Assembly: GCA_023078555.1 (NCBI GenBank)
Contig: CM041202.1
Location: 5,380,522 to 5,444,521 of the forward strand
Direction: 5' to 3'
From: Ulva prolifera
Taxonomy: Eukaryota > Chlorophyta > Ulvophyceae > Ulvales > Ulvaceae
DNA: 64,000 bases
Shown here: positions 10,471 to 60,199 of the stretch, piece after piece
How the letters are laid out: each line of letters begins with the position of its first letter
How positions within the stretch are numbered: the stretch's first letter is position 1
Notes under the pieces: generated by a model
Told to the model about the DNA's origin: nothing
What the model saw: only the letters and a program-made list of their open reading frames with translations
Databases searched by the model: none
Position numbers and translations under genes: made by a program

Positions 10471-10475
10471 CCCTG

Positions 10476-16308: not shown

Positions 16309-16320
16309 TCACCGATACCA
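16309..16320 (-). other. primer-binding site of inner copia
   Basis: TGGTATCGGTGA on minus directly follows the 5' LTR. Copia elements commonly use initiator tRNA-Met with a TGGTATC site, so this tRNA is the likely primer. Confidence 0.8.
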
Positions 16321-16667: not shown

Positions 16668-16672
16668 GGATC

Positions 16673-19476
16673 ATCTGATCCGTGGTGCACATAATTTGCC
16701 GCACCACCACAACCCTACCCCCAGGGACATCCTGGGCGTACACACGTTGCATGCTGGGCCCCAGCCCAGCACCAACCCAGTATGCGACCATACCCCGTGC
16801 AGACAACTTCCGCAAGTGATCATCCCTAGGATACGCATACACCTCAACCCCCCATGGACGCTGCTGCTTCACCAAATCCCGGAACAACTCAACGGAGGTG
16901 TCTCTGAAAAAAGACATGTAGGGAATAATATCCCTGTCACAAGACCTGGTCAAAAACTCGTCCAGCTCTGTCATAGTGAGCAACTCCCACTTGCGCTTTT
17001 CCTCCTCACGCAACTTATCACGTTCGGCCTTCTTCATGCGCTTATTAGCCCGCTCAGCATGCTGTACATCCGCAGCTGTATTGGCAGCATTGGCAGCTTT
17101 CTGGGCTTTCATCATTGCTGCTAGCTTGTCATGGTACAGCGCCGAGCACGGCGTGAGATTGTGGCCATGGACAACACTAGCAAGGCATTCAATCCACAGG
17201 AACAGACGAAGACCGCTCGCAAGCAGTGCAGCTCGGACTGCCTCAAAGTCAATCCCGATCCTCCGCTCAATCATGCCATTACAGCGATGATTAGCTGTGG
17301 GGGTGGTGCGATGTGTGATGCCACGACGCTGGAGGTAGAGTTTTAAGGCCTCAACCATGAACTCCCCCCCTTTGTCGGTGTGAAGGATGCGCACACCCGG
17401 TTCACCTGGCTTCACCACATTCACCCGAATACGCTGAATGATGTAAGAGATCATGGCCGCAGCCTCACTCTTTTTACGCAGACCGACAATGAAAGTATAA
17501 CGCGTGAAGGCGCACATCACAAACAAGACATATTTCACACCGCCGATCCCAACTGGAGTGATGGGACCAGCCAAATCAGCATGCAATTGCTCGCCAGGGA
17601 ACTTCGCCTGGCCTAAGAGCTCACGATTATTGGCTGAGATTTTGCCCGCGGGCACTTTGCCAATTCTGCAGCCGTGACAACGATTCCCCATTGGCTCGGG
17701 GTCAACTTTTAAATTCAAATCACCATAAAAATCACTATTCGACTGCATGCGCTTCAAGACCCAATTTGACTGGTGAAAGGACAAATGGGCGAGGAATGCA
17801 GGTTCCAACAAGTAAGCATCATGTGGGACCTCAGCTCCCCCAGCATTGGGGCGCTGCAGGTCAATTGCCGCAGCAGCCACATGACACCACTGCTGTTGAT
17901 CCTCCACAACAGAGGTTGGACTGCTCTGGTCAGACCAGACCACTCCCCTGTTGACAGGATGACCCTGAAGAACAGGCTTCTTGACAGAACACATTTTGAA
18001 AGCAAAGACACGACACTTATCCTCGTCCAGCTCCTGGTATTTGGACGCATCCTCAATACCAGTCGCCATATCTCCGAGACCGGGGACATACAACACACTC
18101 CTACGCGTGTCTAAGTATATCTGCTCATGGCGAAGACCCATAGTACTCAGTATGTTGTATGGACACTCAGGAGCATAGTACACACCCGGGATTTCCACAT
18201 CCAGAGGATGCTTATTCCCATGCTCATCCAAATAAGTGCCCAGGTTCACCTGAATGGTTCCCCTGCCCATAATGGGGATCTTGCCTGGTCCCGCGGGATT
18301 GGCAGTCCTCTGGCACGGACCATACTCAGTGAACATGTCGCGATTGCCCACAATGTGAATGTCAGAACCACTATCAATGATAAAATTCCACGGTGCCAAT
18401 GCATCATGATCCGGGAATTCTTCAGGCAGTTCTACAGCACAAACATCTTTGGCCGCGGCCTGTTTGCGCTGGGGGCAGTTCGCACGCAAGTGTCCCTTCT
18501 TCTTGCAGAAGAAGCAGGTCCTGGTCTCCTCGCGAGGAGCCTTGCCAGCGTCGAGCGCGGCAACTGCAGGACCGTCGCCTCGCTGCTGATTGCGCCAGCC
18601 TTGGCCTGGTTTGCCCGCGGGCGGACCAGACCTAGCCTGCAGCCGCTGCTGCTTGAGCAAATCAGCATGCTCAGTCAAACGTGCAATGATGACATGGGGG
18701 GAGGAGTGTTGGACTTCGCCGCGCACGGCATTGAACTCCTCCCCTACTTCTAAAAGTTTTAATCGGAGCCATCGCTGGCCCACATCGGCACCTAGTGCCT
18801 CCAATTGAGTGTACACACTCATCACTTCACCACAGTAAGACCCAACGTCTCTATTTCGCTGTGACAAAGAGTTGAAGCGACTCCACAGTCTGTGGATCTC
18901 GGCTTCAGTGCTGGGCCTATACTTAGCAGTGAGATAGGCCCATGCCTCACACAGATGTGACATGCGATAGACAGTGGTCCTATCCGCGTCAGGCAAAGAC
19001 ATAAGAACTTGAGTCCTCGCTCTAGCGTGGACACGCTGTTCGTCCGCGGACGGTGCGTGCTGCAACAGATGATCTAACTCGAACTGTCCTAACCACAAAA
19101 AGACTTTCTGCTCGTACGCAACGAAGCTTTCGGTCTTAAAATTCCACTCAGGCAATTTCCCTTTGGATAAATCAGGCTCGTTACGTCCCCGAGATGCACG
19201 CAGCGCTTCGGTTAACGTCTCGAGTGTGATGAACGACTCAGTGTGACCATGATCGTTCACAACATGAGAGGAAAAAGGCACCTGCTGGCTGCTCTGCCCA
19301 GTCTGGGAAGAGGGACGTGGTCGGATAACTCGTCCGCCACGAAGTAACATGCCCGCGGGCTGTTCTCCTTCAGGGAGCTGCTGGTCAGCGTCCCTGTAGA
19401 CGAGTGGCTGCTGATCAGCCTCGTCCTGCCTCTCCTCGCGAGGAGAGTTAGCGTTGGAGCGATCGGAGTTAGACAT
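16673..19476 (-). pseudogene. outer copia polyprotein, N-terminal part (Gag, protease, integrase)
   Basis: Starts at MSNSDRS (19476). It contains a Gag region, zinc knuckle CFFCKKKGHLRANC, protease FIIDSGSDIHIVG, and the integrase core with HADLAG, HTDKGGEF and CNGMIERR, all three catalytic acidic residues visible. It breaks at TTDQMI where the inner copia was inserted; the remaining frame (to about 16630) is read-through into LTR sequence. The continuation is at 7267-10111. It is close to the inner element's protein but clearly diverged, so the two are related subfamilies rather than recent copies of one another. Confidence 0.92.
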
Positions 19477-29989: not shown

Positions 29990-30757
29990 CTACCGCGCAC
30001 CCACAGTCGCGCACCCCGGGTGTGCGACCTGGCGGTACGCCCTGTGGATGATGCGGTGCCCAAGCCGTCCCCGCAGTCCATACACATGCCAACGACGTCA
30101 TCAGACGGGACTCCCAGTGGACCAAGGACTGGGAGTCCCGTCTGACGACCTGTCGCCGCTTACAGGCCATCCAGCCTGAGCGGTGGGGTTCCCCTCGGGA
30201 GCCTCGCCCGCTTGACGCCACCAACCGATGGCCTATGACTCCAGCTAGGCCGGGGCCGATGGGCGTGCGGGGTGCCTTCGTTAGCATGTGCAGGGACTGC
30301 GAAGATGGCTTGGGCGATGCATTGTCCTGGGTATGGTGCGGCGTGGGCCGGCGGGGCTGCGCGGCGGTGTTCCGGGCTGGCGTGGTGTGCTGTGGCTCGG
30401 GGGGTGGGGGTGGGGTTTGGGGCTAGGGCGGCCCCCAGCAATCGGCGGCCAAGATGGGCGGCCTCAGGCAGCAGTGTGGTGGGCGTGGCCCTGTCGTACG
30501 GCGGCGGGCATTGTGGTGTTGGCGGTCGTGTTGTTGTGTGTTACAAAGGAAAAAGCCGGAGGGGCCGGTAGCACCGCCAGGACCAAAAGGGAGAGCACAA
30601 GAAACGCAATGCGCACGCAGCAGGAGAGCAACAGTCAATGCCAAGGCACAACAAGCACGCACACACCTCCACACTCCCACACACTACCACACGAACCAAC
30701 CCCCACACGCACCTCCACACGCACCCACCCCCAAACGCACCGACACACTGACACCCG
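29990..30757. repeat. LINE 3'-UTR fragments, opposed orientations
   Basis: About 29990-30115 is a minus-oriented piece of the LINE UTR (GGCATGTG...GGACTGCGGGGACGGC on minus). Positions 30128-30536 are a plus-oriented first half beginning at the GGGAGTCCCGTCTGACGACC block. Positions 30537-30757 are a minus-oriented tail whose terminus is TTTGTAACACA. The arms at 30097-30118 and 30128-30149 form a 22-bp inverted repeat with one mismatch and a 9-nt spacer. The older tail is interrupted at 30757 by the LINE at 30758-35607 and resumes at 35621. Confidence 0.65.
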
Positions 30758-33700
30758 TCGACAGCATCCAGGCCATGTGTACGACGGATCAGCTGGCCCT
30801 GCACAGCTGGCAGCCGTGCCCATTCTGCAGACTTCCGTTTTCAACCATCAGCGGGGGCCTAATGAAGCACGCAGCGAACTGCCCACACGATCGGCAGCCG
30901 CAACTGCAGCAGCGCGGCAGGAGCAGGGATCAGCTGCTTCCCCAGCAAGGACCGTCTGCACCAAGCTCCTCACCAGCTGCGATCGCTGCGCAGCACGCGC
31001 GGGAGGACCGCTGCCGTCACGAGCCGCTGCAAGCGGACGACGCCTTGGTGGCACCAAGTTGGTGCACCGAGCGTCGCGCTGCGACCAGGACTCACGGGAC
31101 CCCGACCCGCTGCGCCCTGGGGCTACGAGCGGCAGCGGAGGCACCACTGGGCCGCTGGAACAGCCGGCTGCCCGCTCCGACATGGTCCTGGCATCGAAAG
31201 ATGTGCACCAGTGGACCGCAGGCAGCCCGGCTGGCGGCCATATCCCCTCAGGTGACGTCCCGTCACCCACACTCCCCTCGGATGACGAAATGCATGAGGA
31301 CGACATGCCGGCGACGAGCTCCATGCCTGCTCCCCACCCCCACCAGACAACAAGACTGCATGGGGTGGGAGGCACGCGAGGGGCGCCTGAGCCTACCCCT
31401 GAGGCGGCCGTCCCCCATGCGTTGTGACATGCGATGAGCGGAGAGCAGCCGCTGCAGGCCGGTCCCTCAGACCCTGCGCTATCTGGGTCCATGCACGCAG
31501 GGACAGCCCCTATAGCGGCCCCTGCAACAGGCAGCCCCCGTGACGGGAGTCACTCGGCGCAGAGAGCGGCGCAGGCACGCCCGCCAGACCCCGGAGACAT
31601 CGCCCCAGATCGCGCCAAGATCCACGGCAAGGCGGCGCGAGATTCGCACATGCGGGACATCGGAGAGCACAGTCGTGTCGGCCACGACCCCCAGCCGTCC
31701 ACGGCCCCCACACACCCATCAGCGCCGTCTCCGCAGTCCTCGGGCCCGGTTCCCCGCATCCACCAGACGGTCGCCTTCCATGGCAGGGAGGCCTGGGCAG
31801 GGGCCGTGGCTGACGCGGGTGCAGCGATCATCGCAGCGACGGAACGAGAGCACCCTCCCAGCATCGTCAAGGCCGTGGGCCGCCTCATCGATTTGCCGGT
31901 CGATGTCTTGGCAGATGACTGGGCCAGCGAAGGCCGCAGCTGCAGGATCATCGCGCGTGTGCGCGAGCTGAAAACACGCACGCGCCGGGCAATGACGCTG
32001 GGGGAGGCGACGGGCCTGGACCCAGGCCGCACCCCGACGCAGGTCGTTGAGGACGCTGCCCTGGCGGACCGGATACACCGCAGCTGCCGCCTCGGCAACG
32101 TGGGCAAGGGCGCACGCAGCCTTGACGCCCTCAAGATGATGCAGATCGACGACGCTACCGTCCTTGAGCTCGAGGGGCTCCACCCACGCGCCCCCCCCCG
32201 CTGGCAGGCCGCCCCCAGCAGCCCTCCGTCGAGGGGACTGCACCAGCCCAGATCGGCGCCGAACAGTTTGAGGCCATCCTGCACTCCCTGAAGAGAGGCA
32301 CCGCAGCAGGCCCCAGCGGATGGACGTACGAGCACATCCGCATTAATGCCGGCCTGTACGATGAACGCACTGGTGAGATCTTGCGGAAGTGCATCAATCT
32401 CATGCTGGCGGGCAGGCTGCCACACCTGGAGCACCTCCTGGCATCCCGCCTTGTCGCCCTCGAGAAGCCAGCAGGAGGGGCGAGGCCCATCGCGATCGGT
32501 GAAGCGTTTGTGCGCCTGGCAAGTATCTGTGCACTGGCGTGCGTGCCAGACGTCGGTGCCCTCCTCGCCCCGCTGCAGATCGGTGTGGCCATCCAAGGGG
32601 GAGCCGAGATCCCGGGCCATGCCCTGAGGCCGGATTTTGCGAAGCCAGACACCGTCACGGTGTCCACGGATCTGCAGAATGCCTTCAATGTGATGTCCCG
32701 GGAGGCAATGGAGGAGCAGCTCGCCGCATCGCTCCCGGAGCTTCTCCCATACTTCCGAACGGTGTATGGGCAGAGCAGCGCCCTCCTCGCACGCCGTCCG
32801 GATGGCACCTGCGTGGAACTGCGCAGCGAGACAGGCGTGCGACAGGGCGACCCCCTGGGGCCGCTCTTGTTCGCGCTCGCCTACCTCCCCACCTTGAAAG
32901 AGGCGCAGCGGCTCGCCCCCAATGCCCTTGTCGCATCCTGCCATGATGATACGTATGTGCAGGGCGATGCAGACAGTGTGGTGGCTGCTGCGAACGCGAT
33001 CCTCACGCGCCATCCATGCAACCGCGCGAAAACCGTTGTGTACTGCACCGATCCGGAGAACGCGCGCCATGTGGCAGCGCAGTTGCAGGCTACGGTCGCC
33101 GAGGACGGGATTGTGGTCTGCGGCACGCCGCTCGGCACCGACGCCTTCATTGAAGCCCACGTAAAGCAGCGCTGCCAGCACACAACGGCGCTCATCGACA
33201 AGCTGATCGGGCTGCCCCTGCCGGCGCAGTCGAAGTGGGCGGTCCTGTACTACTGCCTCCAGCACAGGGAGGCACACCTCCTCCGCAACACAAGCTGGGG
33301 TGCGCTCCGGGACTATCTGCCGACCGTCGAGGACGCCACGCTGCGTGCCCTGTGCAACATCATGGATGTAGCTGACCTGACCAAGGCTCAGGCCGAGCAG
33401 GCCCTCCTGCCTCACCGCCACGGAGGCATGGGGATCCGGCACTACACCGCGGATGTGGCGGATGCGGCACGCCTTTCATCAGCTGCGCTGGCGCAGTGTG
33501 CGGTGGTCGACGGTGTTGAGTGTGGCTGGCCGTTCCGCAGCAGCGCAGCCGTGGAGCTGCAGGGTGTCCTTGACCGGCTGCGTTCGACGTGGGGTCACGC
33601 GATCGCCGACCTCGGCGCCGGCCCTGCTGACGCCGCAGCACGGCGCTGGACACCACAGCGAAGCTGCGCCTGACGCAGCTGCAGCGGGCGATATCGCGCG

Positions 33701-35040
33701 CTGAGGCTGACGGGCGCAAGGCCGCCATGTTTGCTGCGCTCTTCATGGCCGGCAGTGGCCGGATGTCCCAGTTCATTGAAGACGGCCAGGCGGCGGCAGC
33801 CAGATTACGCAGCTGCATGGGGGCCATGGCATCGGCTTGGCTCACGGTGCTCCCGGGTCAAGTGACGGGCCTGTCCGACCTGGAGTTCGGCGTGTACGCG
33901 CGGCTCCGGCTCGGGGAAGTCCTCCTGCCCCGTCTCAGCGGCGACGATGACACATCCTCTGAATGCCCCTGTGGCCGCAGTGATGCGTCTGGTACGCACT
34001 CGCTGATCTGCAAGTCGATGTGGGGTACCGTCGTGGCCCGCCACAATCTTGTCATGGAGACATGACGCCGCATCATGGCACGCGGCGGAATCGCGTCAGC
34101 GGTCGAGCCTCACATGAGCAGGCTCCCCCGCGGCCTCGGCCCCGGCATTGGGCTCGCCCGCAACGTGCCGGACAGCACGGACGCAGCTTCCCTGTCACTC
34201 ACCACCAAATCCTCACCCAACCAGGCCTCGGTCGCGCCCGCTCCTCCTCATGGCGCCCAGGCCCCGTCCCCCACCATCCCGCAGCCTGCTCCAGCATGCC
34301 CCGACAGCGCGACGCCGTCCCCCGCGGCCGATCACCTCGCAACCTCCCCCGCCCCCGCTGCAGTCGCGCCCGCTCTCTCCCATGGCGCCCAGGCACCCTC
34401 TTCCCTCACGTACGCGGCTGTCCTTGCGTCCTCCTGTGCTGCCACAACGGCGACCGGTGCCGACGCCCCCACTGGTGCGGCCGCCCCCCACACCGCGCAG
34501 GCGGTGCCGCAAGCACCGCAGCAGTCGGTCCAAGCACCAGCTGCCCCGTCGCAGGCTGTGCCCCGGTCCCGTAGACCCGCACAGCGGGGCGACATCCTCG
34601 CGTTCTTCCCGGGCGCGCCGGTCATCGGCGACGTGTGCGTCACCCACCCGCTGGCTTTCTCGAACGTCAGCGCCGCGGCGCTCCGCGTCGGTGCCTCGGC
34701 AGAGGCCGCCGACCGGCGCAAACGCGAAAAGTACGGCCGGGCCGGCGCGGGCGCGTTCACGCTGGTCCCGCTGACGCATAAGACGTACGGCCGTGTTGGC
34801 CCGGCCGCCTTTGCATTCCTCAACAGGCTTGCTGATGTGGCTGCAGGGTCTGGCGCGGCCTCTCGGCGGCGTTTCCTGGAGAACGCAATGCGCGATCTCT
34901 CGACGACGCTCTGTCGTGCAGTGGCGCGCCAGGTGCGCGCCGCAGCTCCGCTGATGGCACGTCACGCGGGCAAGGCAGTTTTGGCGGGACTCACAGTCCC
35001 GTCTGATGACCTGTCGCCGCTTACAGGCCATCCGGCCTGA
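30758..35040 (+). pseudogene. LINE copy A ORF: zinc finger, reverse transcriptase, restriction-like endonuclease (decayed)
   Basis: Colinear with the intact ORF at 54349-58734 and very similar, but broken. Near 31427 CATTGAGAC has become GTTGTGAC, giving a stop. A C7 run has become C9 at about 32191-32199. There are indels near 32346 and 33641. At 34063-34065 a TGG codon has become TGA. Reverse-transcriptase motifs VSTDLQNAFN, TGVRQGDPLG and CHDDTYVQGD, the CPCG...H...C knuckle and the endonuclease motif GDILAFF...DVCVTHP are still visible in their separate frames. Confidence 0.9.
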
Positions 35041-35607
35041 GCGGTGGGGTGCCCCTTGGGCGCCCCGTCCGCTTGACGCCACCGACCTGTGGCCTGTGAC
35101 TCCAGCCAGGCCGGGTCCGGTGGGTGTGCGGGATGCCTTCGTTGGCATGTGCAGGGACTGCGGAGATGGCTTGGGCGATGCATTGTCCTGGGTGCGGTGC
35201 GGCGTGGGCCGGCGAGGCTGCGCGGCGGTGTGCTGGGCTGGCGTGGTGTGCTGTGGCTCGGTGGGGTGTCTTGGGGCCAGGGCGGCCCCCGGCAATCGGG
35301 CGGCCATGATGGGCGGCCTCAGGCAGCAGTGTGTTGGGTTTGGCCCTGTCGTGCGGCGGCGGGCGTTGTGGTGCTGGTGGTTGTGATGTTGTGTGTCGGC
35401 CGTGGGGTTTGGGCGTGCGTGTGTGGGTTTGGGTTTGTGGGTGTGTGGGTGTGTGCTTGGCGGTCTACGGATCTGTGTCTTCTGCGCCGGTGCCGGGGGT
35501 TTTTTTTTGGGCGTGGTGGGTGTCGCGTGCGTGGGTGTCTGTGTGTTTGCTTCGTCTGTTTGCTTCTTTCGCGGTGCTGCCCGCCTTGCTGCCTTTGTCC
35601 TTGTAAC
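35041..35607 (+). repeat. LINE copy A 3' UTR
   Basis: GT-rich UTR with GTGTGCTTGGCGGTCTACGG and the terminal block GCGGTGCTGCCCGCCTTGCTG. Nearly the same as 58735-59318. Confidence 0.85.
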
Positions 35608-35620
35608 ACACTGACACCCG

Positions 35621-35944
35621 ACCCACGCACCCACACGCGGCCCAGACCCCACCCCAACACACGCACCCACACGCCAATACGCTACACGACTCCGCCGCCC
35701 GCGTGGCAGCGGCAGCCCCATGCAGCGGCCTGGCGGGCGCCTGCCCCACACGGAAGCCGCGGGGGGCCCCCAGGACCCCCGCTCCAACGCCCCGACCAGG
35801 CCAGCCCCGGGCGCCGGAACAACACACACGGGGGCGCCCCCATCCGCAGACCCACCCGGAACGGAGCACTCCCGAGGCGCGCTGTGTTCGGGTGTTGGGG
35901 CACGCGGCAGAGGCAGCACACGCCGCCTACCAGTGCGTCCAAGC
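35621..35944. other. CA-rich and GC-rich stretch between LINE tails
   Basis: It resumes the older inverted tail (ACCCACGCACCC repeats) after the copy A target site, then runs into GC-rich sequence with no recognisable gene. Long ORFs on both strands reflect base composition. Confidence 0.45.
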
Positions 35945-36550
35945 CTCTTCCGTTGTGTTGTTGTGTGTGGGCCGTGGGGTCTGTGCGTGCGTGTATGGGT
36001 GTGTGGGTGTGTGCTTGGCGGTCTGCGGGTCTGTGTACTTTGCTGCGCTGGTGCTGGGTTTTCTGGGCGTGGTGGGTGTCGCATGCGTGAGTGTCTGGGA
36101 GTTTGCTTTGCCTGTTTGCTTCTTTCGCGATGCTGCCCGCCTTGCTGCCTTTGTCCTTGTAACACATGCCAACGAAGTCATCTCGCACGCAAAGCGGCTG
36201 CCCTGGAGTCAGAGGCCATCGGTCGATGGCGTCAAGCGGGCGCGCCGCGCAGGGTCCCCGAGGGGCAGCTCAACGCTGTGTCCAAATGGCTTGTCAGCGG
36301 CGAGAGGTCATCAGACGGGACTGTGAGTCCCGCCAGAACTGCTTTGCACGTGTTTGTGTGTGCGTGTGTGGGTGTGCACATGTTCTTGGCTCTGCGGATC
36401 TGTGTCATTTGCCAAAAGCGTGATGCGTTTTGTATGTGTTGCGTGCGTCGGTATCTGGGTGTGTGTTTGATGTGCTTGCTTCCTTTGCGGTGCTGCCCGC
36501 CTCGCCACCGTTACAAACCTGTACACCAATAGCATCCTTGTAACACACGT
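35945..36550. repeat. three LINE 3'-UTR fragments, alternating orientation
   Basis: 35945-36167 is a plus-oriented tail ending CCTTGTAACACATGCC. 36168-36350 is a minus-oriented piece covering the ORF end and first part of the UTR, including the GGGACT...AGTCCC hairpin. 36351-36550 is a plus-oriented tail (CTCTGCGGATCTGTGTC, CGGTGCTGCCCGCC, CCTTGTAACACACG). Confidence 0.65.
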
Positions 36551-36924
36551 GCACCCATCGGGGCGGTTCTGCCACCTGTCCCAGTGGCACATCGTGATCG
36601 GCATGTCTCCGCCGTTGCGGTTTTGGTGCGGCCGTTGCTCGCACGGCGAGGTCCTTATGACAGTGCCTCTGGTGATTCGTGGTCTGATGTAGCAGTTGTT
36701 CTTATTCAATAAGTTGTCGGTGTTGATGGTGTTGGTGGTGATGCTAGGGTGTCCGGTGTTGCAATTCGCCCGTCACCTCTCGGTGAATTGGCTCGTGTTG
36801 TTGCATTCTGTGGCGCAAGTCAGAGTTTGCGGCAGCATGTTGCTTGGATGCCTCTTTCGGTCCCGGATTTCGGAGTTGTCCATGTCCAAATGGATACGGC
36901 TATGTATGTGATCATGCATACATA
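36551..36924. other. no recognisable feature
   Basis: Unique-looking sequence between LINE fragments. Confidence 0.35.
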
Positions 36925-37065
36925 CATACATTTTGAAGTTTCTCATGTGCAGTGCACTTGCCCGTAGTGGGTGTGCACTGGCCTGGTGAATGAGTGGATT
37001 TGCGTGTGAGTTCCTGGCAATGGCTCGGTGCCCGGCCTCTGTCCTTTGTAACTACATACATACAC
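36925..37065 (+). repeat. 3' tail of second LINE family
   Basis: GAGTGGATTTGCGTGTGAG, TTCCTGGCAATGGCTCG and GCCTCTGTCCTTTGTAA repeat at 37850-37910, after the ORF of the next copy, so this is the tail of an adjacent fragment. Confidence 0.6.
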
Positions 37066-37917
37066 ATGCCCGCCCCCCGCCGGGCTCGGCCCCCCCTGCT
37101 CCGCCCCGGCCCGCCTCCCAGGTCGCGGGCCCTTCGCGCCGGGCGACCTTGCCTGCAGAGCCGATGCGTGCGGCTCCGCCGCCGCCGCCGGCCACGCGCG
37201 GCGCCGGCACCTGCGCCTGCTCCGGCCGCCGATGCCGATGCTGAAGACAGCGCCCAGATGGGGCGCCACGCGCCAGACGCAGCGCAGGCTGCGGCCCTGG
37301 CGGCGGCGGCGGCGCCGGGTGGCCAGGATCCGGCGGGGCCTGGGGAGCAGGCCGCTGCCGCGCAGGCGGCGGCGCTGGAGCGGGTGCTCAGCGCGGTGGC
37401 CCAGGACAAACTGGGGGACATCATGTTTGTGCCGCCGGGTGACGCTTTGTGCATAGCAGATGTGTCGGTTGTGAACCCCTGTGCTGATTCCTATTGCGGC
37501 TGTGCGGCCCGAGAGGAGGGGGGTGCCGCGGAGACGCGGGACGTGCAGAAACGCACTGCTTATTGTTTGTACGACCCTGATGCGTATAGTTTTGTGCCGT
37601 TGTCGCATGAGACGCATGGTCGCTTGGGACGGCCTGCCATGAATCACTTGAATCGGCTGGCGGAGGTTGCGTCTCGGTGTGGTAAGGTGAACCGTGCTTT
37701 GTTTGTGACGAATGCTCTGCGCCGGTTGAGTGTGGCGTTGTGCAAGGTAAATGCTCTCGTGATCCGTGCGGGGCTTCAATCTTTGGCTGGCATCACTGGC
37801 CGAGCTGTGGTACGTGCTCGTACCCGGCCTACTGCCATGACTGCGTGAGTGGATTTGCGTGTGTGTTCCTGGCAATGGCTCGCTCCCCGGCCTCTGCCCT
37901 TTGTAAATACATACACA
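37066..37917 (+). mobile_element. 5'-truncated LINE, second family (restriction-like endonuclease end)
   Basis: The open frame to 37848 has a GC-rich Ala/Pro N-terminal part and then a domain parallel to the C terminus of family 1: KLGDIMFVPPGD, IADVSVVNP, RDVQKRTAY, SFVPLSHETHGRLGRPAMNH and LNRLAEVA. Family 1 has GDILAFFPGA, DVCVTHP, RRKREKYG and LVPLTHETYGRVGPAAF. The two are homologous but well diverged, so they are separate families. The reverse transcriptase is absent. The tail ends CCCTTTGTAAATACATACACATG. Confidence 0.7.
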
Positions 37918-37982
37918 TGTTGGCCACTTCTTTTGCGGTGCTGCCCGCCTTGCTGCCTTAAGCTTTGTCCTTGTAACACATG
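37918..37982 (+). repeat. short LINE family 1 tail
   Basis: TTCTTTTGCGGTGCTGCCCGCC followed by TTTGTCCTTGTAACACATG. Confidence 0.6.
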
Positions 37983-38215
37983 TTGGCCATGTCTGGGCCC
38001 GAGTAAGGCCGTCTGACACTTAGCTAGCTGTCGCAAAGATAGCAAACTGACGTCCGCAATGGCGCATCTGCCACATATTTCAACTGCAAGCTGGTTCTGG
38101 ATACGTCATGCTGTACCATGAACACAAATGGTTATTACAAAAGAGTGAACGGGAGAAGACAAACACCAAAACCGAATCACGACCGAACCAACAGCAACAC
38201 ATGTTTCAACTGCAA

Positions 38216-38500
38216 GCTGGTTCTAGACACGGCAAGGGGGGTCTGCACTCGGGCCATGCACACGTCCACCGGGAACGCGATCCACTCAGACATCGCCCAG
38301 GGCCCTGGGCGGTGTCTATGGACTCACAATAACATACTGAATGACACAGGCGGTCGTCTCACGTCGCTGGGCGAAAGCAGGCTTTTCGTCGAAAAGCGTA
38401 TGCATGCCTGGGCAGAATGACCCATTTCGCCCAGGGAGCGCCTACAGCGCCCAGCGCGTGCCCAGAGCGCGCCCAGTGAGCCAAGGACACCCTTATTATG
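38216..38500 (-). repeat. GCTGGGC-rich dispersed repeat, copy 2
   Basis: Inverted relative to copy 3 at 39840. It contains GCCCAGGGCCCTGGGC, several GCCCAGC/GCTGGGC heptamers and, at its 3' end on minus, the GTGGACGTGTGCATGGCC block. A direct repeat of TTTCAACTGCAAGCTGGTTCT lies beside it at about 38080 and 38206. Confidence 0.75.
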
Positions 38501-39839
38501 TTTATAATCACTAGTGGGACGTTATCTTTGATGTTATCGATTGCTGTGGAAAGCGTCCTAGCCGTTGTGACTTGTGGGGTCATGTACTGTCACATGTAGG
38601 CAGCTGCTCTGCGCGATTGGAGCGCTATGAAGAATCAATACAAGTGTTGTTCACTCTTGGGGATGGGTTGTTTTGTCGCTCTGCGGTTGATTGCTTCAGC
38701 GGCTCTGACCCCATTTCGTTCTGGCGTGTCCAGTACATGGCATGAGTATAAACGACAGGCTTCAATAGACGTGCATGCTTAAATTATGGTACAGTCGGGA
38801 TACCTTCAACGATACCGACAGCTGTGATCGAGGCTGATCAAGCGGCTGTCCACATGATGAAGGTCATTGTATTGACACCACATGGATGCAGCTGGCCTGG
38901 TTGATACATCTGGCATGTTTGACAGTATCATTTAGTTGCATCTAGATTGTATTGCAAGCAATGTCACATCTGAAGGATGCCAGTCAGGTTAAATGCTGGT
39001 TGCATGGTAGCATTGTGCAAGAGGTAGAAAACCGATGCAGTTGACTGTTTACTGCTGTGGAAAAGAATGCAAAAGAGTATTTACGAGAGAAGAAATCAGT
39101 ATGCGCTCTGCATCACTGTCATGGGATTCTGAACTGCATCAGAGGTGTAGGAAAGCAAGAATGCCTGACATACAGCCTCTTTGTGTGCTTGCATCTGTGA
39201 CCTGCCACATTACGCCCACTGATGGCATCACGATTGACCACGACTCACTCACGTGGATCGGTGCTGGTTGAACAGCGATAAGTTATTGCGTAGTGCTGAA
39301 TACATTTGTGTGAATGAACATGCTGTCGCGACCGTCACAGCCAGATTCGCAGCGCCTCCGTGCCCTCGATAACGAGGAAGGAGCTGATATACACAGGTGA
39401 AAATTATGACTGCAATTTGTAGATCGCGCAGGGATCATTCTTGCCGTGGCTTTGATAAGCCGGTGTACGGCAGCGTACTTTCAATCACTGTGACGGAAGA
39501 ACAATGCTGCCTTCCCCACCGAGATTAGAGATCCTGAGCCATCTGGGGCTGGTGGTTTTTGGTATGTGTACGTATATGCCGTGGTCGATTGAAATGCTAT
39601 GTTGCGTCTTTCCTGACACAGCTGTTTTGCGTCTTTGCAAACTCACGAGGTGCAGAAACTGCACACAAGTTCCGGTACAAACCAACAGCAAAGCCGTCAG
39701 TCACTTAACTTCACTCAATCGCTGAGTCTGTGGTAGCTAAGCCGGTCTAGGCCGGCGTGGTGTCCGCTCTCCATGACTGCATCACAGACACGTCGGACAT
39801 ACCCGCACGACACCGGTTGATAGGTCACTGAACATCCAT
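38501..39839. other. no recognisable feature
   Basis: AT-richer than its surroundings. No motif-bearing ORF and no shared repeat found. Confidence 0.35.
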
Positions 39840-40113
39840 GAGACATATTATAGTGTTTTCGGGGTGTTCTCAACCCACTGTGCTCACTGGGCGTGCGCTG
39901 GGCGCCAAATCCGCGTCCATGGGCGAAATCAGCATTTGGGGCGAAAACAGGCCTTTCCCTGGGCACTTTTCTACGTTTCGCCCAAGGACCGCCTGTGTGC
40001 ATTCAGTATGTTATTGTGAGTCTATAGACACCGCCCAGGGCCCTGGGCGATGTCTGAGTGGCTCGCGTTCCCGGTGGACGTGTGCATGGCCCGAGTGCAG
40101 ACCCCCCTACACG
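39840..40113 (+). repeat. GCTGGGC-rich dispersed repeat, copy 3
   Basis: Complete copy: ACATATTATAGTGTTTTC start, GCGCTGGGCGCC, GGGCGAAA motifs, GAGTCTATAGACACCGCC, the 16-bp palindrome GCCCAGGGCCCTGGGC and the GACCCCCCTA end. Confidence 0.75.
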
Positions 40114-40713
40114 GCATGACCACTGCCAGGAGCCATGAGTGAGCCATGACCACTGTCACGGAGGCCTGCGTGGTGAACCGAACTCGAAGCATTGGCGCCA
40201 TGTCCTGCATGCGTTGCATTTGCGCCTTGTCCCGGGCCAAGCGAAATCAGCTTGCTATCTAGATCTGAGGTTTGCCTTTCTGGTCCGTAAGCACAGTAAG
40301 GATATACGTGCGTGGTTACACAACTGCACTTACAAAGCATCACTTTTGATGCATTCTACATCGTGCAACTGCTCAGTAGTGTATGCGCAGCGCCGTTACC
40401 GATATGCGCGGTACTGTTCGACATGGCCAGAGGTGACCTCCACGACGAGGTGCCAACGTTCCGCGTTTTTCGGGCAGTTGGCCTATTCTGTCGTGCGGCT
40501 GCTTCCACACGGGTTGGAGGTGCTGCGGAGGTACATTTGTGTGCCTCTGCATGCATTGCCCGCATTTGCGGGCGGCGTGATGTGCCTTATCTCGTTATCT
40601 TATCTCGTGTCGGGTTTCTGGGCTCTGGACGTTTCTTCCAGTCTCGGTCGGTCTCGCTCTAGAGGATTGAATATTAGGGAACTTGCGAGCTGGTTCGGTG
40701 TTGGTTGCTTGAC

Positions 40714-40773
40714 TCACGTAGGCGTCTGATGAGGCCCTTTGGCAAGGCCGAAACATGTTATGCCGGTCCGTGA
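40714..40773 (+). ncRNA. hammerhead ribozyme, type I with minimal palindromic stem III
   Basis: All catalytic-core bases are present: CTGATGA at 40726-40732, GAA at 40750-40752, the A-T pair bounding stem III, and T at 40759 before the predicted cleavage (40759/40760). Stem II is GGCC/GGCC with loop CTTTGGCAA. Stem I closes as GGCGT/ATGCC (one G-U), then an internal loop TA/GGTC, then TCACG/CGTGA. Stem III is the palindrome ACATGT. It is too short to close within one molecule, so a dimer is expected, as described for hammerheads of Penelope-like elements and retrozymes. An ORF (40139-40729) ends inside the motif, and its product is not recognisable. Confidence 0.88.
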
Positions 40774-40825
40774 TGTTCATGTAATACAGCATCAACCAGT
40801 GAACTTTCTACCTCAGTTAGTACAA
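40774..40825 (+). repeat. conserved flank of the hammerhead repeat
   Basis: TGTTCATGTAATACAGCATC and CAACCAGTGAACTTTCTACC match 2630-2680, showing that the ribozyme belongs to a dispersed repeat. Confidence 0.6.
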
Positions 40826-40997
40826 CGTTCCGCGACAGCTTGACTGGATGTGGCATGTACCATGTGCTACATTTTGCGCTGTGCGAGCTGTGGTTGCACC
40901 AGTTTGCGTTTGTCACCGCCACACTGGCGAGCCTGCCGCCTTGACATATAGTCGCGGACCTGTCACAGTGCCTTCGTGCCACTTCAGCCCCTCACAA

Positions 40998-53703: not shown

Positions 53704-54348
53704 GATGCACCACGTCAGCTCGACACTGAGACTCGGACGTCCACCGCTACGCCGACAAATGTCCCAGCATGGATTCCTGGCACGGCTGTCGGTATCCTCG
53801 GGGCGCTGGTAGTATAGTCTACACCGCCGCCGGCTGTAAGGGCGTATCTCTGACGAGGCCGCTGATTCACGTGCTATGTTTTTGCGGGAGCCTGAGCGCG
53901 TACATGCTATGCCACTGCGTGCAGTCTGCATGCAGTCTGTCGAGTGACCTTCTTTGTTTGTTCTGAATGCGTGGCTCGCTCTGCTCGCCGCGCGCGCGTT
54001 GCGGTTCCGCCTCCGGCAGGTCCCAGAACGATAACTTAGAAATTAATTTTTGTAAAACACAGCCGCAGTAGGTCGAAGCGGCTTTAGCGCCGGGTCCTGC
54101 GCCTAGTGCAGCCACCGTGCTTCCGCTCTGCGCAGCCAAGTGCTGATCCGCCCTCCGGCCCAGCCTCCTACTCTGGAGCCTGCGACAGTGTATAATAAAT
54201 AATTTGACGTCTTATTTTGTCCTCGACAGCGGGGTCACGAACTCGTTCTTGGCCCATGCTTTCTGTGGGTGCGGATGCACCAGGCGAACTGATTGTTTGC
54301 CGCCCTGCCCAAACGACGTCGACGTGCCTCAACGGAGCTTAGGCAGGA

Positions 54349-57300
54349 ATGCCGAGTGTTCGACAGGTTCAGCGGAGGCGAAGGAAGGAACCGGAAGAGG
54401 AGCTACCATGTCCTGTGTGCGAGGAGCAGGTCAAGAAAGGGCGCCTGCCCGATCACTGCCGTAGACAGCATCCAGGCCATGTGTACTCGACGGATCAGCT
54501 GGCCCTGCACAGCTGGCAGCTGTGCCCATTCTGCAGACTCCCGTTCTCGACCATCAGTGGGGGCCTAATGAAGCACGCAGCGAACTGCCCGCACGATCGG
54601 CAGCCGCAACTGCAGCAGCGCGGCAGGAGCAGGGATCAGCTGCTTCCCCAGCAAGGACCGTCTGCACCAAGCTCCTCACCAGCTGCGATCGCTGCGCAGC
54701 ACGCGCGGGAGGACCGCTGCCGCCACGAGCCGCCGCAAGCGGACGACGCCTTGGTGCACCGAGCGTCGCGCTGCGACCAGGACGCGCGGGACCCCGACCC
54801 GCTGCTCCCTGGGGCTACGAGCGGCAGCGGAGGCACCACTGGGCCGCTGGAACAGCCGGCTGCCCGCTCCGACATGGTCCTGGCATCGAAAGATGTGCAC
54901 CAGTGGACCGCGGGCAGCCCGGCTGGCGGCCATATCCCCTCAGGTGACGTCCCGTCACCCACACTCCCCTCGGATGACGAAATGCATGAGGACGATATGC
55001 CGGCGACGAGCTCCATGCCTGCTCCCCACCCCCACCAGACAACAACACTGCATGGGGTGGGAGGCACGCGAGGGGCGCCTGAGCCTACCCCTGAGGCGGC
55101 CGTCCCCCATGCATTGAGACATGCGATGAGCCGAGAGCAGCCGCTGCAGGCCGGTCCCTCAGACCCTGCGCTATCTGGGTCCATGCACGCAGGGACAGCC
55201 CCTATAGCGGCCCCCGCAACAGGCAGCCCCCGTGACGGGAGTCACTCGGCGCAGAGAGCGGCGCAGGCACGCCCGCCAGACCCCGGAGACATCGCCCCAG
55301 ACGTCTCGCGCGCCGAGATCCACGGCGAGGCGGCGCGAGATTCGCACATGCGGGACATCGGAGAGCACAGTCGTGTCGGCCGCGACCCCCAGCCGTCCAC
55401 GGCCCCCACACACCCATCAGCACCATCTCCGCAGTCCTCGGGCCCGGTCCCCCGCATCCACCAGACGGTCGCCTTCCATGGCAGGGAGGCCTGGGCAGGG
55501 GCTGTGGCTGACGCGGGTGCAGCGATCATCGATGCGACGGAACGAGAGCACCCTCCCAGCATCGTCAAGGCCGTGGGCCGCCTCATCGATCTGCCGGTCG
55601 AGGTCCTGGCAGATGACAGGGCCAGCGAAGGCCGCAGTCGCAGGATCATCGCGCGTGTGCGCGAGCTGAAAACACGCACGCGCCGGGCAATGACGCTAGG
55701 GGAGGCAGCGGGCCTGGACCCAGGCCGCACCCCCACACAAGTGGTTGAGGACGCTGCCATGGCGGACCGGATAGACAGCAGCTGCCGCCTCGGCAACGTT
55801 GGCAAGGGCGCACGCAGCCTCGACGCCCTCAAGATGATGGAGATCAACGACGCTACCGTCCGTGAGCTCGAGGGGCTCCACCCACGCGCCCCCCCGCTGG
55901 CAGGCCGCCCCCAGCAGCCCTCCGTCGAGGGGACTGCACCAGCCCAGATCGGCGCCGAACAGTTCGAGGCCATCCTGCACTCCCTGAAGAGGGGCACCGC
56001 AGCAGGCCCCAGCGGATGGACGTACGAGCTCATCCGCATTGCAGGCCTGTACGATGAACGCACTGGCGAGATCTTGCGGAAGTGCATCAATCTCATGCTG
56101 GCGGGCAGGCTGCCACACCTGGAGCACCTCCTGGCATCCCGCCTTGTCGCCCTCGAGAAGCCAGCAGGAGGGGCGAGGCCCATCGCGATCGGTGAAGCGT
56201 TTGTGCGCCTGGCGAGTATCTGTGCACTGGCGTGCGTGCCGGACGTCGGTGCCCTCCTCGCCCCGCTGCAGATCGGTGTGGGCATCCAAGGGGGAGCCGA
56301 GATCCCGGGCCATGCCCTGAGGCCGGATTTTGTGAAGCCAGACATCGTCACGGTGTCCACGGATCTGCAGAATGCCTTCAATGTGATGTCCCGGGAGGCA
56401 ATGGAGGAGCAGCTCGTCGCATCGCTCCCGGAGCTTCTCCCATACTTCCGAACGGTGTATGGGCAGAGCAGCGCCCTCCTCGCCCGCCGCCCGGATGGCT
56501 CCTGCGTGGAGCTGCGCAGCGAGACAGGCGTGCGACAGGGCGACCCTCTGGGGTCGCTCTTGTTCGCGCTCGCCTACCTCCCCACCTTGAAAGAGGCGCA
56601 GCGGCTCGCCCCCAACGCCCTTGTCGCATCCTGCCATGATGATACGTATGTGCAGGGCGATGCAGACAGTGTGGTGGCTGCTGCGAACGCGATCCTCACG
56701 CGCCATCCATGCAACCGCGCGAAAACCGTCGTGTACTGCACCGATCCGGAGAAAGCGCGCCATGTGGCAGCGCAGTTGCAGGCTACGGTCGCCGAGGACG
56801 GGATTGTGGTCTGCGGCACGCCGCTCGGCACCGACGCCTTCATTGAAGCCCACGTGAAGCAGCGCTGCCAGCACACAACGGCGCTCATCGACAAGCTGAT
56901 CGGGCTGCCCCTGCCGGCGCAGTCGAAGTGGGCGGTCCTGTACTACTGCCTCCAGCACAGGGAGGCACACCTCCTCCGCAACACGAGCTGGGGTGCGCTC
57001 CGGGACTATCTGCCGACCGTCGAGGACGCCACGCTTCGTGCCCTGTGCAACATCATGGATGTGGCTGACCTGACCAAGGCTCAGGCCGAGCAGGCCCTCC
57101 TGCCTCACCGCCATGGCGGCATGGGGCTCCGGCACTACACCGCGGATGTGGCAGATGCGGCACGCCTTTCATCAGCTGCGCTGGCGCAGTGTGCGCTGGT
57201 CGACGGTGTTGAGCGTGGCCGGCCGTTCCGCGGCAGCGCAGCCGTGGAGCTGCAGGGTGTCCTTGACCGGCTACGCGCGACGTGGGGTCACGCGATCGCC

Positions 57301-58734
57301 GACCTCGGCGCCGGCCCTGCTGACGCCGCAGCATGGGCGCTGGACACCACAGCGAAGCTGCGCCTGACGCAGCTGCAGCGGGCGATATCGCGCGCTGAGG
57401 CTGACGGGCGCAAGGCCGCCATGTTTGCTGCGCTCTTCATGGCCGGCAGTGGCCGGACGTCCCAGTTCACTGAAGACGGCCAGGCGGCGGCAGCCAGATT
57501 ACGCAGCTGCATGGGGGCCATGGCATCGGCTTGGCTCACGGCGCTCCCGGGTCCAGTGACGGGCCTGTCCGACCTGGAGTTTGGCGTGTACGCGCGGCTC
57601 CGGCTCGGGGAAGTCCTCCTGCCCCGTCTCAGCGGCGACGATGACACATCCTCTGAATGCCCCTGTGGCCGCAGTGATGCGTCTGGTACGCACTCGCTGA
57701 TCTGCAAGTCGCTGTGGGGTACCGTCGTGGCCCGCCACAATCTCGTCATGGAGACATGGCGCCGCATCATGGCACGCGGCGGAATCGCATCAGCGGTCGA
57801 GCCTCACATGAGCAGGCTCCCCCGCGGCCTCGGCCCCGGCATTGGGCTCGCCCGCAACGTCCCGGACAGCACGGACGCAGCTTCCCCGTCACTCACCACC
57901 AAATCCTCACCCAACCAGGCCTCGGTCGCGCCCGCTCCTCCTCATGGCGCCCAGGCCCCGTCCCCCACCATCCCGCAGCCTGCTCCAGCATGCCCCGACA
58001 GCGCGACGCCGTCCCCCACGGCCGACCACCTCGCAACCTCCCCCGCCCCCGCCGCGGTCGCGCCCGCTCTCTCCCATGGCGCCCAGGCACCCTCTTCCCT
58101 CACGTACGCGGCTGTCCTTGCGTCCTCCTGTGCTGCCACGACGGCGACCGGTGCCGAAGCCCCCGCTGGTGCGGCCGCCCCCCACACCGCGCAGGCAGTG
58201 CCGCAAGCACCGCAGCAGTCGGTCCAAGCACCAGCTGCCCCGTCGCAGGCAGTGCCCCGGTCCCGCAGACCCGCACAGCGGGGCGACATCCTCGCGTTCT
58301 TCCCGGGCGCGCCGGTCATCGGCGACGTGTGCGTCACCCACCCGCTGGCTTCCTCGAACGTCAGCGCCGCGGCGCTCCGCGACGGTGCCTCGGCAGAGGC
58401 CGCCGACCGGCGCAAACGCGAAAAGTACGGCCGGGCCGGCGCGGGCGCGTTCACGCTGGTCCCGCTGACGCATGAGACGTACGGCCGTGTTGGCCCGGCC
58501 GCCTTTGCATTCCTCAACAGGCTTGCTGATGTGGCTGCAGGGTCTGGCGCGGCCTCTCGGCGGCGTTTCCTGGAGAACGCAATGCGCGATCTCTCGACGA
58601 CGCTCTGTCGGGCAGTGGCGCGCCAGGTGCGCACCGCAGCTCCGCTGATGGCACGTCACGCGGGCAAGGCAGTTTTGGCGGGACTCACAGTCCCGTCTGA
58701 TGACCTCTCGCCGCTTACAGGCCATCCGGCCTGA
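54349..58734 (+). CDS. LINE ORF: C2H2 zinc fingers, reverse transcriptase, restriction-like endonuclease
   Basis: Intact 1461-residue protein. N terminus: two zinc-binding modules, CPVCEEQVKKGRLPDHCRRQH and CPFCRLPF...HAANC (residues about 23-85). Reverse transcriptase: GTAAGPSGWT, LVALEKPAGGARPIAIG, VSTDLQNAFN (near 669), TGVRQGDPLGSLLFA and CHDDTYVQGD (near 762); the usual YADD box reads CHDD. A CPCGRSDASGTHSLIC knuckle lies near 1103, then a Pro/Ala-rich linker. The C-terminal endonuclease has GDILAFFPGA (near 1311), DVCVTHP and RRKREKYG. No apurinic-type endonuclease is seen. This architecture matches the R2/NeSL/Hero group of LINEs in general plan; the exact clade is not assigned. Confidence 0.9.
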   Translation: MPSVRQVQRRRRKEPEEELPCPVCEEQVKKGRLPDHCRRQHPGHVYSTDQLALHSWQLCPFCRLPFSTISGGLMKHAANCPHDRQPQLQQRGRSRDQLLPQQGPSAPSSSPAAIAAQHAREDRCRHEPPQADDALVHRASRCDQDARDPDPLLPGATSGSGGTTGPLEQPAARSDMVLASKDVHQWTAGSPAGGHIPSGDVPSPTLPSDDEMHEDDMPATSSMPAPHPHQTTTLHGVGGTRGAPEPTPEAAVPHALRHAMSREQPLQAGPSDPALSGSMHAGTAPIAAPATGSPRDGSHSAQRAAQARPPDPGDIAPDVSRAEIHGEAARDSHMRDIGEHSRVGRDPQPSTAPTHPSAPSPQSSGPVPRIHQTVAFHGREAWAGAVADAGAAIIDATEREHPPSIVKAVGRLIDLPVEVLADDRASEGRSRRIIARVRELKTRTRRAMTLGEAAGLDPGRTPTQVVEDAAMADRIDSSCRLGNVGKGARSLDALKMMEINDATVRELEGLHPRAPPLAGRPQQPSVEGTAPAQIGAEQFEAILHSLKRGTAAGPSGWTYELIRIAGLYDERTGEILRKCINLMLAGRLPHLEHLLASRLVALEKPAGGARPIAIGEAFVRLASICALACVPDVGALLAPLQIGVGIQGGAEIPGHALRPDFVKPDIVTVSTDLQNAFNVMSREAMEEQLVASLPELLPYFRTVYGQSSALLARRPDGSCVELRSETGVRQGDPLGSLLFALAYLPTLKEAQRLAPNALVASCHDDTYVQGDADSVVAAANAILTRHPCNRAKTVVYCTDPEKARHVAAQLQATVAEDGIVVCGTPLGTDAFIEAHVKQRCQHTTALIDKLIGLPLPAQSKWAVLYYCLQHREAHLLRNTSWGALRDYLPTVEDATLRALCNIMDVADLTKAQAEQALLPHRHGGMGLRHYTADVADAARLSSAALAQCALVDGVERGRPFRGSAAVELQGVLDRLRATWGHAIADLGAGPADAAAWALDTTAKLRLTQLQRAISRAEADGRKAAMFAALFMAGSGRTSQFTEDGQAAAARLRSCMGAMASAWLTALPGPVTGLSDLEFGVYARLRLGEVLLPRLSGDDDTSSECPCGRSDASGTHSLICKSLWGTVVARHNLVMETWRRIMARGGIASAVEPHMSRLPRGLGPGIGLARNVPDSTDAASPSLTTKSSPNQASVAPAPPHGAQAPSPTIPQPAPACPDSATPSPTADHLATSPAPAAVAPALSHGAQAPSSLTYAAVLASSCAATTATGAEAPAGAAAPHTAQAVPQAPQQSVQAPAAPSQAVPRSRRPAQRGDILAFFPGAPVIGDVCVTHPLASSNVSAAALRDGASAEAADRRKREKYGRAGAGAFTLVPLTHETYGRVGPAAFAFLNRLADVAAGSGAASRRRFLENAMRDLSTTLCRAVARQVRTAAPLMARHAGKAVLAGLTVPSDDLSPLTGHPA

Positions 58735-59318
58735 GCGGTGGGGTGCCCCTTGGGCGCCCCGTCCGCTTGACGCCACCGACCTGTGGCCTCTGACTCCAGC
58801 TGGGCCGGGTCCGATGGGTGTGCGGGATGCCTTCGTTGGCATGTGCGGGGACTGCGGAACGGCTTGGGCGATGCAGTGTCCTAGGTGCGGTGCGGCGCGG
58901 GCCGGCGGGGCTGCGCGGCGGTGTGCCGGGCTGGCGTGGTATGCTGTGGCTTGGTGGGGTGGGGGTGGGTCTTGGGGCCAGGGCGGCCCCCGGCAATCGG
59001 GCGGCCATGATGGGCGGCCTCAGGCAGCAGTGTGTTGGGTTTGGCCCTGTCGTACGGCGGCGGGCGTTGTGGTGCTGGTGGTTGTGATGTTGTGTGTCGG
59101 CCGTGGGGTTTGTGCGTGCGCGTGTGGGGGTTTGGGTTTGTGGGTGTGTGGGTCTGTGCGTGTGTGTGCTGGTGTGTGGGTGTGTGCTTGGCGGTCTGCG
59201 GATCTGTGTCGCTTGCTGCGCCGGTGATGGGTGCGATGTTCGTGGGTGTCTTGGTGTTTGCTTCGTCTGCTTGCTCCTTTCGCGGTGCTGCCCGACTTGC
59301 TGCCTTTGTCCTTGTAAC
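58735..59318 (+). repeat. LINE copy B 3' UTR
   Basis: GT-rich, with GTGTGCTTGGCGGTCTGCGG and GCGGTGCTGCCCGACTTGCTG near the end. A short hairpin GGGACT-CAC-AGTCCC spans the last codons just upstream (about 58680-58694) and is retained in isolated UTR fragments elsewhere in the window. Confidence 0.85.
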
Positions 59319-59332
59319 ATGCTATGCCACTG

Positions 59333-60199
59333 ATCAGCCACAGTACACTGGGAATGGCTGTGCCTCTTGGCAGCCTTAGATCTGAATGTATATTCCAGAA
59401 AACAATGCACGATCGCTCAGCAAGCAGCAGTGTTGCAATGGCGTGCAGCTGGCATTGTGGCCAGAACCTTGGGGTGCTGTATGCAGTGTATGGCTGAGAT
59501 GTAGCTGTTTTACACCGAATCGATGTGGTGCCAAGATGCAATAGCACTAAAGCCGCTGGGGCTGTCTGACTGCAATCTTTTCCACACACACCCAAACCAA
59601 TTGCCAGGTACAGGCCAGCGCACCAGCCAATCCACCACCCGAGGCGCTGCAACGCCAATATCCTGGCAGCTGTGGCCATGCGGCCCCGGGGCAGATGCAG
59701 CCATGCGTGAGCCGCTACCAAGTCTCCAACCGCAGACAGAGTTGCATTGAAACGTGTATCTTTGGATTTCGATACGTTCAAAATGCGTAATCTAATTTAA
59801 TGTCTGTTGTCAGTGTTTAGTACGTGCATGTACGTTTCGGACTCGAGCGTTTTTGGAGAGCCAGCTGCTCAGGAGCTCTGGAGCACCCATAGCGACAAGG
59901 CCTAAGATGGCTTTGAACATCCCTTGCATTGCACTGCTTGTTAAAAATGTACTGATTTCTGGAAGTAACAGTCGGTCTGAGCATGAGTCTGATCCTGGAG
60001 CTGTTATTGATGAGTCTGAACAAGATTCTGAGAGTAAAAGATGCTGCATGTGGCCTGTGCACTGAGGGGGGTTATGATAGATGTTGCATGATGGCCTTGC
60101 AAGCAGTGCTCAGCACATGCCATATCATCATGGACCTGAGCAACCTGACCATCTGATGGAATGCTATTTACTGGCATCATCCCAATGTCATCTTTACTT
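59333..60199. other. no recognisable feature
   Basis: Continuation of the sequence interrupted by LINE copy B; no gene seen. Confidence 0.35.

Follow-up and report, generated by a model that had tools for sequence, protein, structure and literature searches.

A hammerhead motif in a truncated element copy

The window analysed here is a 64,000-nt stretch of the Ulva prolifera genome (contig CM041202.1, positions 5,380,522–5,444,521, forward strand), in which a sequence-only reading had proposed a canonical hammerhead ribozyme at 40714–40773. The hammerhead resides in an about 358 bp, 5′-truncated retrotransposon copy located at 40466–40824 between exact 12-bp target-site duplications (TSDs). 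The features of this copy and a second fragment of the same family are as follows (window numbering):

2604–2669, + strand: a second 3′-end fragment of this family, decayed and lacking a usable core (10.2 bits, E 1.7 with model R1; limits set by eye)
40454–40465, no strand assigned: TSD, left copy (CAACGTTCCGCG), an exact 12-nt match to 40823–40834
40466–40824, + strand: 5′-truncated copy of a Penelope-like element, 3′ UTR only; aligns with other copies over 40459–40824, left edge set by the TSD
40711–40774, + strand: hammerhead ribozyme of type I topology (open at stem I) with minimal stem III, from the letters and aligned variants; the 96-bit score with model R1 is by construction
40714–40718, + strand: stem I, outer 5′ strand, pairing with 40769–40773; innermost pair absent in subfamily B
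40721–40725, + strand: stem I, inner 5′ strand GGCGU, pairing with AUGCC at 40760–40764; GACAU/GUGUC in subfamily B
40726–40732, + strand: catalytic core CUGAUGA, unchanged in all 12 aligned variants (many had been selected by this very motif)
40733–40749, + strand: stem II, GGCC (40733–40736) with GGCC (40746–40749) and a 9-nt loop, from aligned variants
40750–40752, + strand: core GAA, from aligned variants and copies picked by their tail
40753–40758, + strand: stem III ACAUGU, a palindrome giving 2 bp within one molecule and 6 bp between two; ACATGT in 45 of 46 tail-picked copies
40759–40760, + strand: predicted cleavage site, after U40759 (H17 = T40759), placed by the hammerhead H17 rule
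40760–40824, + strand: 65-nt 3′ tail of the element, retained in copies; presumed initiation region of the reverse transcriptase (RT)
40823–40834, no strand assigned: TSD, right copy, an exact 12-nt repeat whose CA is common with the element end

A hammerhead is defined by invariant CUGANGA and GAA, an A15.1-U16.1 pair and a residue other than G at H17. Rechecking of the letters confirmed a complete invariant core in the window (CTGATGA at 40726–40732 and GAA at 40750–40752), and the motif agrees with the rest of this rule, with three helices around the core (stems I and II and a 2-bp stem III). The claim that all helices pair was borne out as well: the inner and outer strands of a two-part stem I and both strands of stem II were found in the letters, and the minimal stem III is, as had been read, the palindrome ACATGT at 40753–40758. 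Pairing of this palindrome between two strands was computed at −4.6 kcal/mol. The minimum-energy fold of the window sequence differs from the hammerhead (−19.0 vs. −16.7 kcal/mol, a gap of 2.3), and for a sequence from a second group of copies, subfamily B, the respective values are −17.9 and −8.9 kcal/mol (a gap of 9); foldability of the motif is not above that of shuffles (z −0.56). The non-optimal energies of the hammerhead count against it but can be expected for a stem III of 2 bp, and nearest-neighbour energies ignore tertiary contacts.

The covariance search with Rfam hammerhead models, which had been put forward as a check, gave no match at the gathering threshold in the window, and a relaxed window-wide Rfam scan gave no hammerhead match at E ≤ 10. 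On a 301-base slice RF00008 scored 17.2 bits (E 0.47) vs. a gathering cut-off of 48.5, in an alignment that departs from the proposed fold at stem III/I. One of the seven related loci scanned, L046, had a sub-threshold Rfam match (18.2 bits, E 8), and a whole-genome search with RF00163 gave no match among the 73 of 8343 candidates scored. In our reading, the Rfam hammerhead models expect a longer stem III. For this reason, and because the copy number, the covariation between subfamilies and the conservation presented below indicate a maintained feature, we do not take the missing covariance match as a refutation. To judge from its sequence, the motif looks like a hammerhead of the genuine self-cutting type in the tail of a green algal retroelement.

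A 196-codon ORF (40139–40729) running into the ribozyme had also been pointed out. It crosses the insertion junction at 40465/40466 and was rejected as a gene; it looks like a chance frame and not an ORF of the element. Other features of the window include an inverted-repeat element (38235–40108), which lies immediately upstream of the ribozyme copy and has two arms of 109 nt with 98% complementarity and a spacing of 1656 nt, and three long frames of a Copia-type retrotransposon with RVT_2, rve and gag matches (7267–19476, − strand). A long hairpin at 30087–30164 has a weak miRNA-precursor score below the cut-off and is probably a plain inverted repeat. The segments 30000–38000 and 54000–60000 form blocks of 61–70% GC; along them a positive AT skew turns negative, and both strands bear many overlapping ORFs.

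Genomic copies and their parent elements

The sequence-only reading had recognised no element body and had suggested searching the genome for further copies. Many copies were recovered from the 88.9-Mb genome, including long parents: the window copy is merely 5′-truncated, and at other places there are bodies that have a GIY-YIG nuclease and an RT-like region. A two-part rbcS on a 12.7-Mb contig of this genome matches Rubisco small subunits of plants and green algae, best those of Chlamydomonas, which makes a chlorophyte host most likely. The 131 bases around the motif matched at least 41 genomic places, the 41st being a 30-base piece (40 of 236 candidates scored). Pattern searches allowing up to two mismatches found the cleavage-site region at 78 places genome-wide, the tail just downstream of the site at 100 and the core at 86; the distal tail was found at 85 places with up to one mismatch. 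The reversed-pattern control gave 0 for each of these four counts, and a looser core pattern gave 199 places vs. 63 in its control. Among the 85 distal-tail rows, 40 end in TTAGTACA, 30 in the shorter TCAGTACA, three in TTAGTA, one in TATACA and 11 otherwise. The 5′ ends of copies are graded, from inside the tail up to the full element.

Insertion junctions were compared in 23 copies, namely the window copy and one from each of L009–L030, with the two identical copies of L011 (part of a 3.37-kb segmental duplication) counted once. An anchored repeat of at least 8 nt was present at the 3′ junction in 16 of the 23. In 500 shuffles with mismatched flanks the mean number was 0.26 and the highest 2. 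The remaining seven copies (L010, L011, L018, L021, L022, L023 and L030) have a shorter anchored repeat or none. All 16 repeats start with CA, of which only the left-copy CA is informative, as the right-side anchor includes the element's own final CA. Judged by eye, the 16 repeats are mostly not microsatellite-like, with that of L012 (CATGCATG) being of simple make-up. In L029, the left flank consists of a stretch of the copy's own end in inverted orientation.

At or near junctions, short stretches of an element's own 3′ end were seen in inverted or tandem arrangement in L029 (both ends), L010 (3′ end), L045, L060, L073, L084 and L099, pointing to template jumping during insertion. At L009, a direct repeat of ~230 nt (85% identical, at 1911–2141 and 8378–8603) flanks the full-length copy and lies outside it. 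No head-to-tail full-length pair was seen, and self-comparison of L009, L010, L011 and L029 revealed no pseudo-LTR, with no LTR-like direct repeats at the element ends of L009, L010 and L029; pseudo-LTRs from head-to-tail copies are common, yet not universal, in copies of Penelope-like elements (PLEs). A search for relatives in viral contigs and contigs of prokaryote genomes, sets that possibly do not hold the host's own records, found none.

The parents are about 4.46 kb long, measured from the 5′ base at which both L029 and L030 begin to align. Intact ORF2 frames of 980–982 AA were found in L009, L010 and L029. Upstream lies a proline-rich ORF1 (L010 3866–4684; also L029) whose stop overlaps the ORF2 start (ATGA); ORF1 has no Pfam match. 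ORF2 carries a GIY-YIG domain at AA 77–158 in all three intact frames (PF01541, E about 8e-8, over the cut-off), and a group I intron nuclease model matches it at 6e-12, below its own cut-off. No paired Cys residues were seen by eye near the nuclease core. A CxC motif (C424-S-C426) is present in three of three intact ORF2 sequences and reads CLC in L030.

Evidence for an RT in the C-terminal part of ORF2 is weaker. In L009, a group II RT profile matched below its cut-off (E 3e-4 with the region as query and 0.0017 with all of ORF2, at about AA 765–825), and RVT_1 on pieces of the same sequence gave E 0.017–0.025, also below the cut-off. The RT region of L010 had no Pfam match and the whole ORF2 sequences had no RT match in Pfam; comparison of ORF2 with PDB sequences gave nothing meaningful. 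RT motifs such as YVDD could be recognised by eye. So far as the weak match is an RT, the nuclease precedes the RT-like stretch. Compared with L010, omega for ORF2 was 0.215 (L009) and 0.24 (L029), and for the last 215 codons of ORF1, L029 vs. L010, it was 0.274, a sign of purifying selection by which ORF1 appears to be real. Between L009 and L029 omega was 1.0 over 31 changes, as expected of recent copies. When searched with their flanks, L009, L010, L029 and L030 each gave one match to model R1, on the 3′ side and 65 nt before the 3′ end. The predicted layout is that of an N-terminal EN+ Penelope-like element of the Chlamys type.

A hammerhead with a short stem III and many short copies would also suit a retrozyme, that is, a small non-coding retroelement spreading via circular RNA. 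However, the short copies have graded 5′ ends, share their 3′ end with the ~4.46-kb coding element and often have TSDs, and each of four long copies holds a single ribozyme at its 3′ side. A retrozyme in the sense of a non-coding unit between two ribozymes or LTRs was rejected, as the long copies encode proteins under selection and L009, L010 and L029 have no LTR-like repeats at their ends; we consider an origin of this kind very improbable. Of the double likeness that had been drawn from the minimal stem III, that to Penelope-like elements is supported, and that to retrozymes is not, the element being coding and having one ribozyme.

Conservation and covariation of the proposed ribozyme

To follow the ribozyme in copies chosen by the tail alone, we compared with the window 46 distinct copies that reach at least 55 nt upstream. 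Copies conserving the flank and losing the core and helices had been named as evidence against a ribozyme. Of the 46, 40 keep both CTGATGA and GAA. Differences amounted to 8 of 460 cells in the core (1.7%), 89 of 2438 in the remaining ribozyme positions (3.7%) and 110 of 2186 in the 51 bases upstream (5.0%), these cells not being independent because the copies share ancestry. In the distal tail, counted in two pieces, 1 of 138 and 4 of 460 cells differed (0.7–0.9%), which is partly due to picking by the tail. L009 and L010 are about 92% identical overall, but all of their final 125 nt agree (125/125). No other of the 31 windows compared does better than 120/125, and p is about 2e-5 if sites are independent. 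With a distal tail no less conserved than the core, the identical 3′ ends may be due to an RT initiation site or conversion and not to the ribozyme.

Subfamily B (L031, L033–L036 and L046) has GACAU/GUGUC in stem I where the window has GGCGU/AUGCC, and its H17 is C. Stem III is broken in L036 and one mismatch is present in stem I of L046. As these loci were found with a pattern containing the core, their core is no independent evidence. L049, which was found by RT-like fragments (50–72% identical to L009), has the stem I of subfamily B and a changed core base. In L048, which is more distant and was likewise found by RT, GAA is lost.

Pairing was assessed in two alignments. In the first (41 matches from 42 of >100 loci, fitted to the structure), stems I and II are paired in 91.4% of cells. 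Cells changed on both sides of a pair numbered 11 vs. 4.0 in shuffles, a value reached by 0 of 500 shuffles and equalled by one slid control; counted by pairs, two-sided changes were no more frequent than in shuffles (270 of 500). The second, unfitted set comprised 12 of 23 distinct variants, those that had indels or broken parts being excluded. Here, the 2-bp stem III is paired in 95.8% of cells, and one pair is changed on both sides, as reached by 427 of 500 shuffles. The covariation thus appears to be essentially one compensatory event between two subfamilies.

These results bear on whether the motif is a passenger, either a structure for RT recognition or initiation that resembles a hammerhead or a dead relic. 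Conservation that spans the whole 125-nt end, and not the ribozyme alone, fits such a passenger, as do the uncleaved insertion templates that are the rule (see below). On the other hand, core, helices and the compensation in stem I are kept across two diverged subfamilies (where the core was itself part of the search pattern), changes are rarer in core bases than at other ribozyme positions (1.7% vs. 3.7%), and by a rough estimate a full hammerhead would arise by chance well below once per genome. We therefore regard a passenger as quite unlikely.

Insertion, proposed cleavage and relation to known elements

We think it likely that the copy in the window is the 3′ end of a retrotransposed, 5′-truncated chlorophyte Penelope-like element whose parents encode ORF1 and a GIY-YIG/RT-like protein, with one hammerhead per 3′ UTR that would cleave mainly tandem, read-through or protein-held RNA. 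For insertion, the element protein would cut one DNA strand at a CA dinucleotide, and reverse transcription would start at the RNA end ...AGUACA through CA microhomology. This would give the duplications of 8–20 bp and the frequent 5′ truncation that the copies show.

If insertion templates were trimmed by the ribozyme, copies ending at the cleavage site might be seen. Comparison of coordinates by hand showed that the element tail follows the core in 86 of 86 core matches. Six of these are rearranged near the site: L045, L084, L118 and L119 by duplications or inserts, L043 with a short tail, and L123, whose core is broken at the site itself and followed by a second piece of the tail. No copy ending at the cleavage site was found among the 86 core matches, with L123 as the sole one that can arguably be read so. 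Of eight places inspected, seven carry the core and all seven keep the tail sequence. The tail in 86 of 86 matches argues that insertion templates are as a rule uncut at the site, and, with templates not trimmed there, the ribozyme probably acts, on occasion, on tandem or read-through RNA, in a dimeric or protein-assisted manner. Cleavage would be most likely when two copies meet in such RNA, or when the RNA is held folded by the element protein, because stem III has 2 bp within one molecule and 6 bp between two. The multimeric RNA would be cut into units and single transcripts would be left intact as templates; the tandem substrate itself is hypothetical.

An alternative is that the ribozyme acts before insertion by freeing the 5′ end of the element RNA from transcripts that start upstream; the next unit would then be headed by the 65-nt 3′ product of the copy before it. 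Copy 5′ ends could be located at 84 of the 85 tail places, C7:6494742 being left out, and make up 85 rows because one place occurs twice. In three rows, L058, L065 and L073, the copy begins exactly at the predicted site. L065 has an 18-nt direct repeat (by eye) with three extra bases before it. Yet three of 85 rows are borderline vs. the background (P about 0.04 given the local density of 20 rows in 26 positions, +8 to −17), positions −6 and +8 hold as many 5′ ends as the cleavage site, and the longest copies, L029 and L030, start together and have no such leader at their 5′ end. The 5′ ends are weakly suggestive, and not more, of a cleavage footprint in vivo, and we hold this pre-insertion role to be unlikely.

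The proposed Penelope-like element can be compared with several known systems. Chlamys-type PLEs are characterised by a CxC linker, a nuclease without CCHH, a bias toward insertion in microsatellites and an insertion in the RT fingers domain; their N-terminal-nuclease layout is reportedly that given by Craig and co-workers in 2021. The Ulva element resembles them in its N-terminal GIY-YIG, CxC linker, C-terminal RT(-like) part and host of the green lineage, and also in 5′ truncation and inverted or tandem pieces at the ends; indeed, 5′ truncation, TSDs and tandem or inverted end rearrangements of the PLE kind are all present in its copies. It differs from Chlamys-type PLEs in having a hammerhead and in its insertion at a CA dinucleotide, with no evident tie to microsatellites; an ORF1 that is under selection and overlaps ORF2 by ATGA is a possible further difference. 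The 2021 abstract of Craig and co-workers is said to describe N-terminal EN+ elements as being without canonical hammerheads, and on account of this denial we count the element as a new variation on PLE hammerheads.

For minimal hammerheads of PLEs, the role is given in reviews as unknown and it is considered that they may cleave as dimers (PMC7761336, PMC6155905), and hammerheads in algae figure as isolated examples in PMC4918200. PAc of Anolis is described in PMC11167929 as a canonical C-terminal EN+ PLE with a minimal type I hammerhead that cleaved only with protein and whose mutants still inserted in vitro. Both PAc and the Ulva element have a hammerhead in a PLE and an insertion RNA that is unprocessed. 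In contrast, the nuclease is C-terminal in PAc and N-terminal here, and the ribozyme lies at the pseudo-LTR/ORF start in PAc and 65 nt before the 3′ end here (PMC11167929). Metazoan and plant retrozymes, as portrayed in PMC7229834 and PMC4918200, likewise have a hammerhead within a retroelement, but they are non-coding, tandem or LTR-bounded and form circular RNA, whereas the element here is coding and 5′-truncated by insertion.

Our literature search found no report of a hammerhead in an N-terminal EN+ PLE, which is weak evidence, as the central papers on this clade lie outside its coverage. Hammerheads in Penelope-like elements are known, and one in the N-terminal-nuclease clade seems to be new. 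We put forward tentatively, as possible rather than probable, that this is the first hammerhead of that clade, located in a bicistronic algal element as a single ribozyme inside the retained 3′ tail, so that cleavage would destroy the insertion template rather than make it. In that case the ribozyme may serve as a switch by which element RNA is limited or sorted, and the ancestor of all PLEs may already have had hammerheads. With a copy-rich element, intact ORFs, a small chromosome-scale green algal genome and a ribozyme in the retained tail, template trimming and unit processing can be separated by simple tests. If the proposal is true, the range of the ribozyme would be extended to the N-terminal-nuclease branch of Penelope-like elements.
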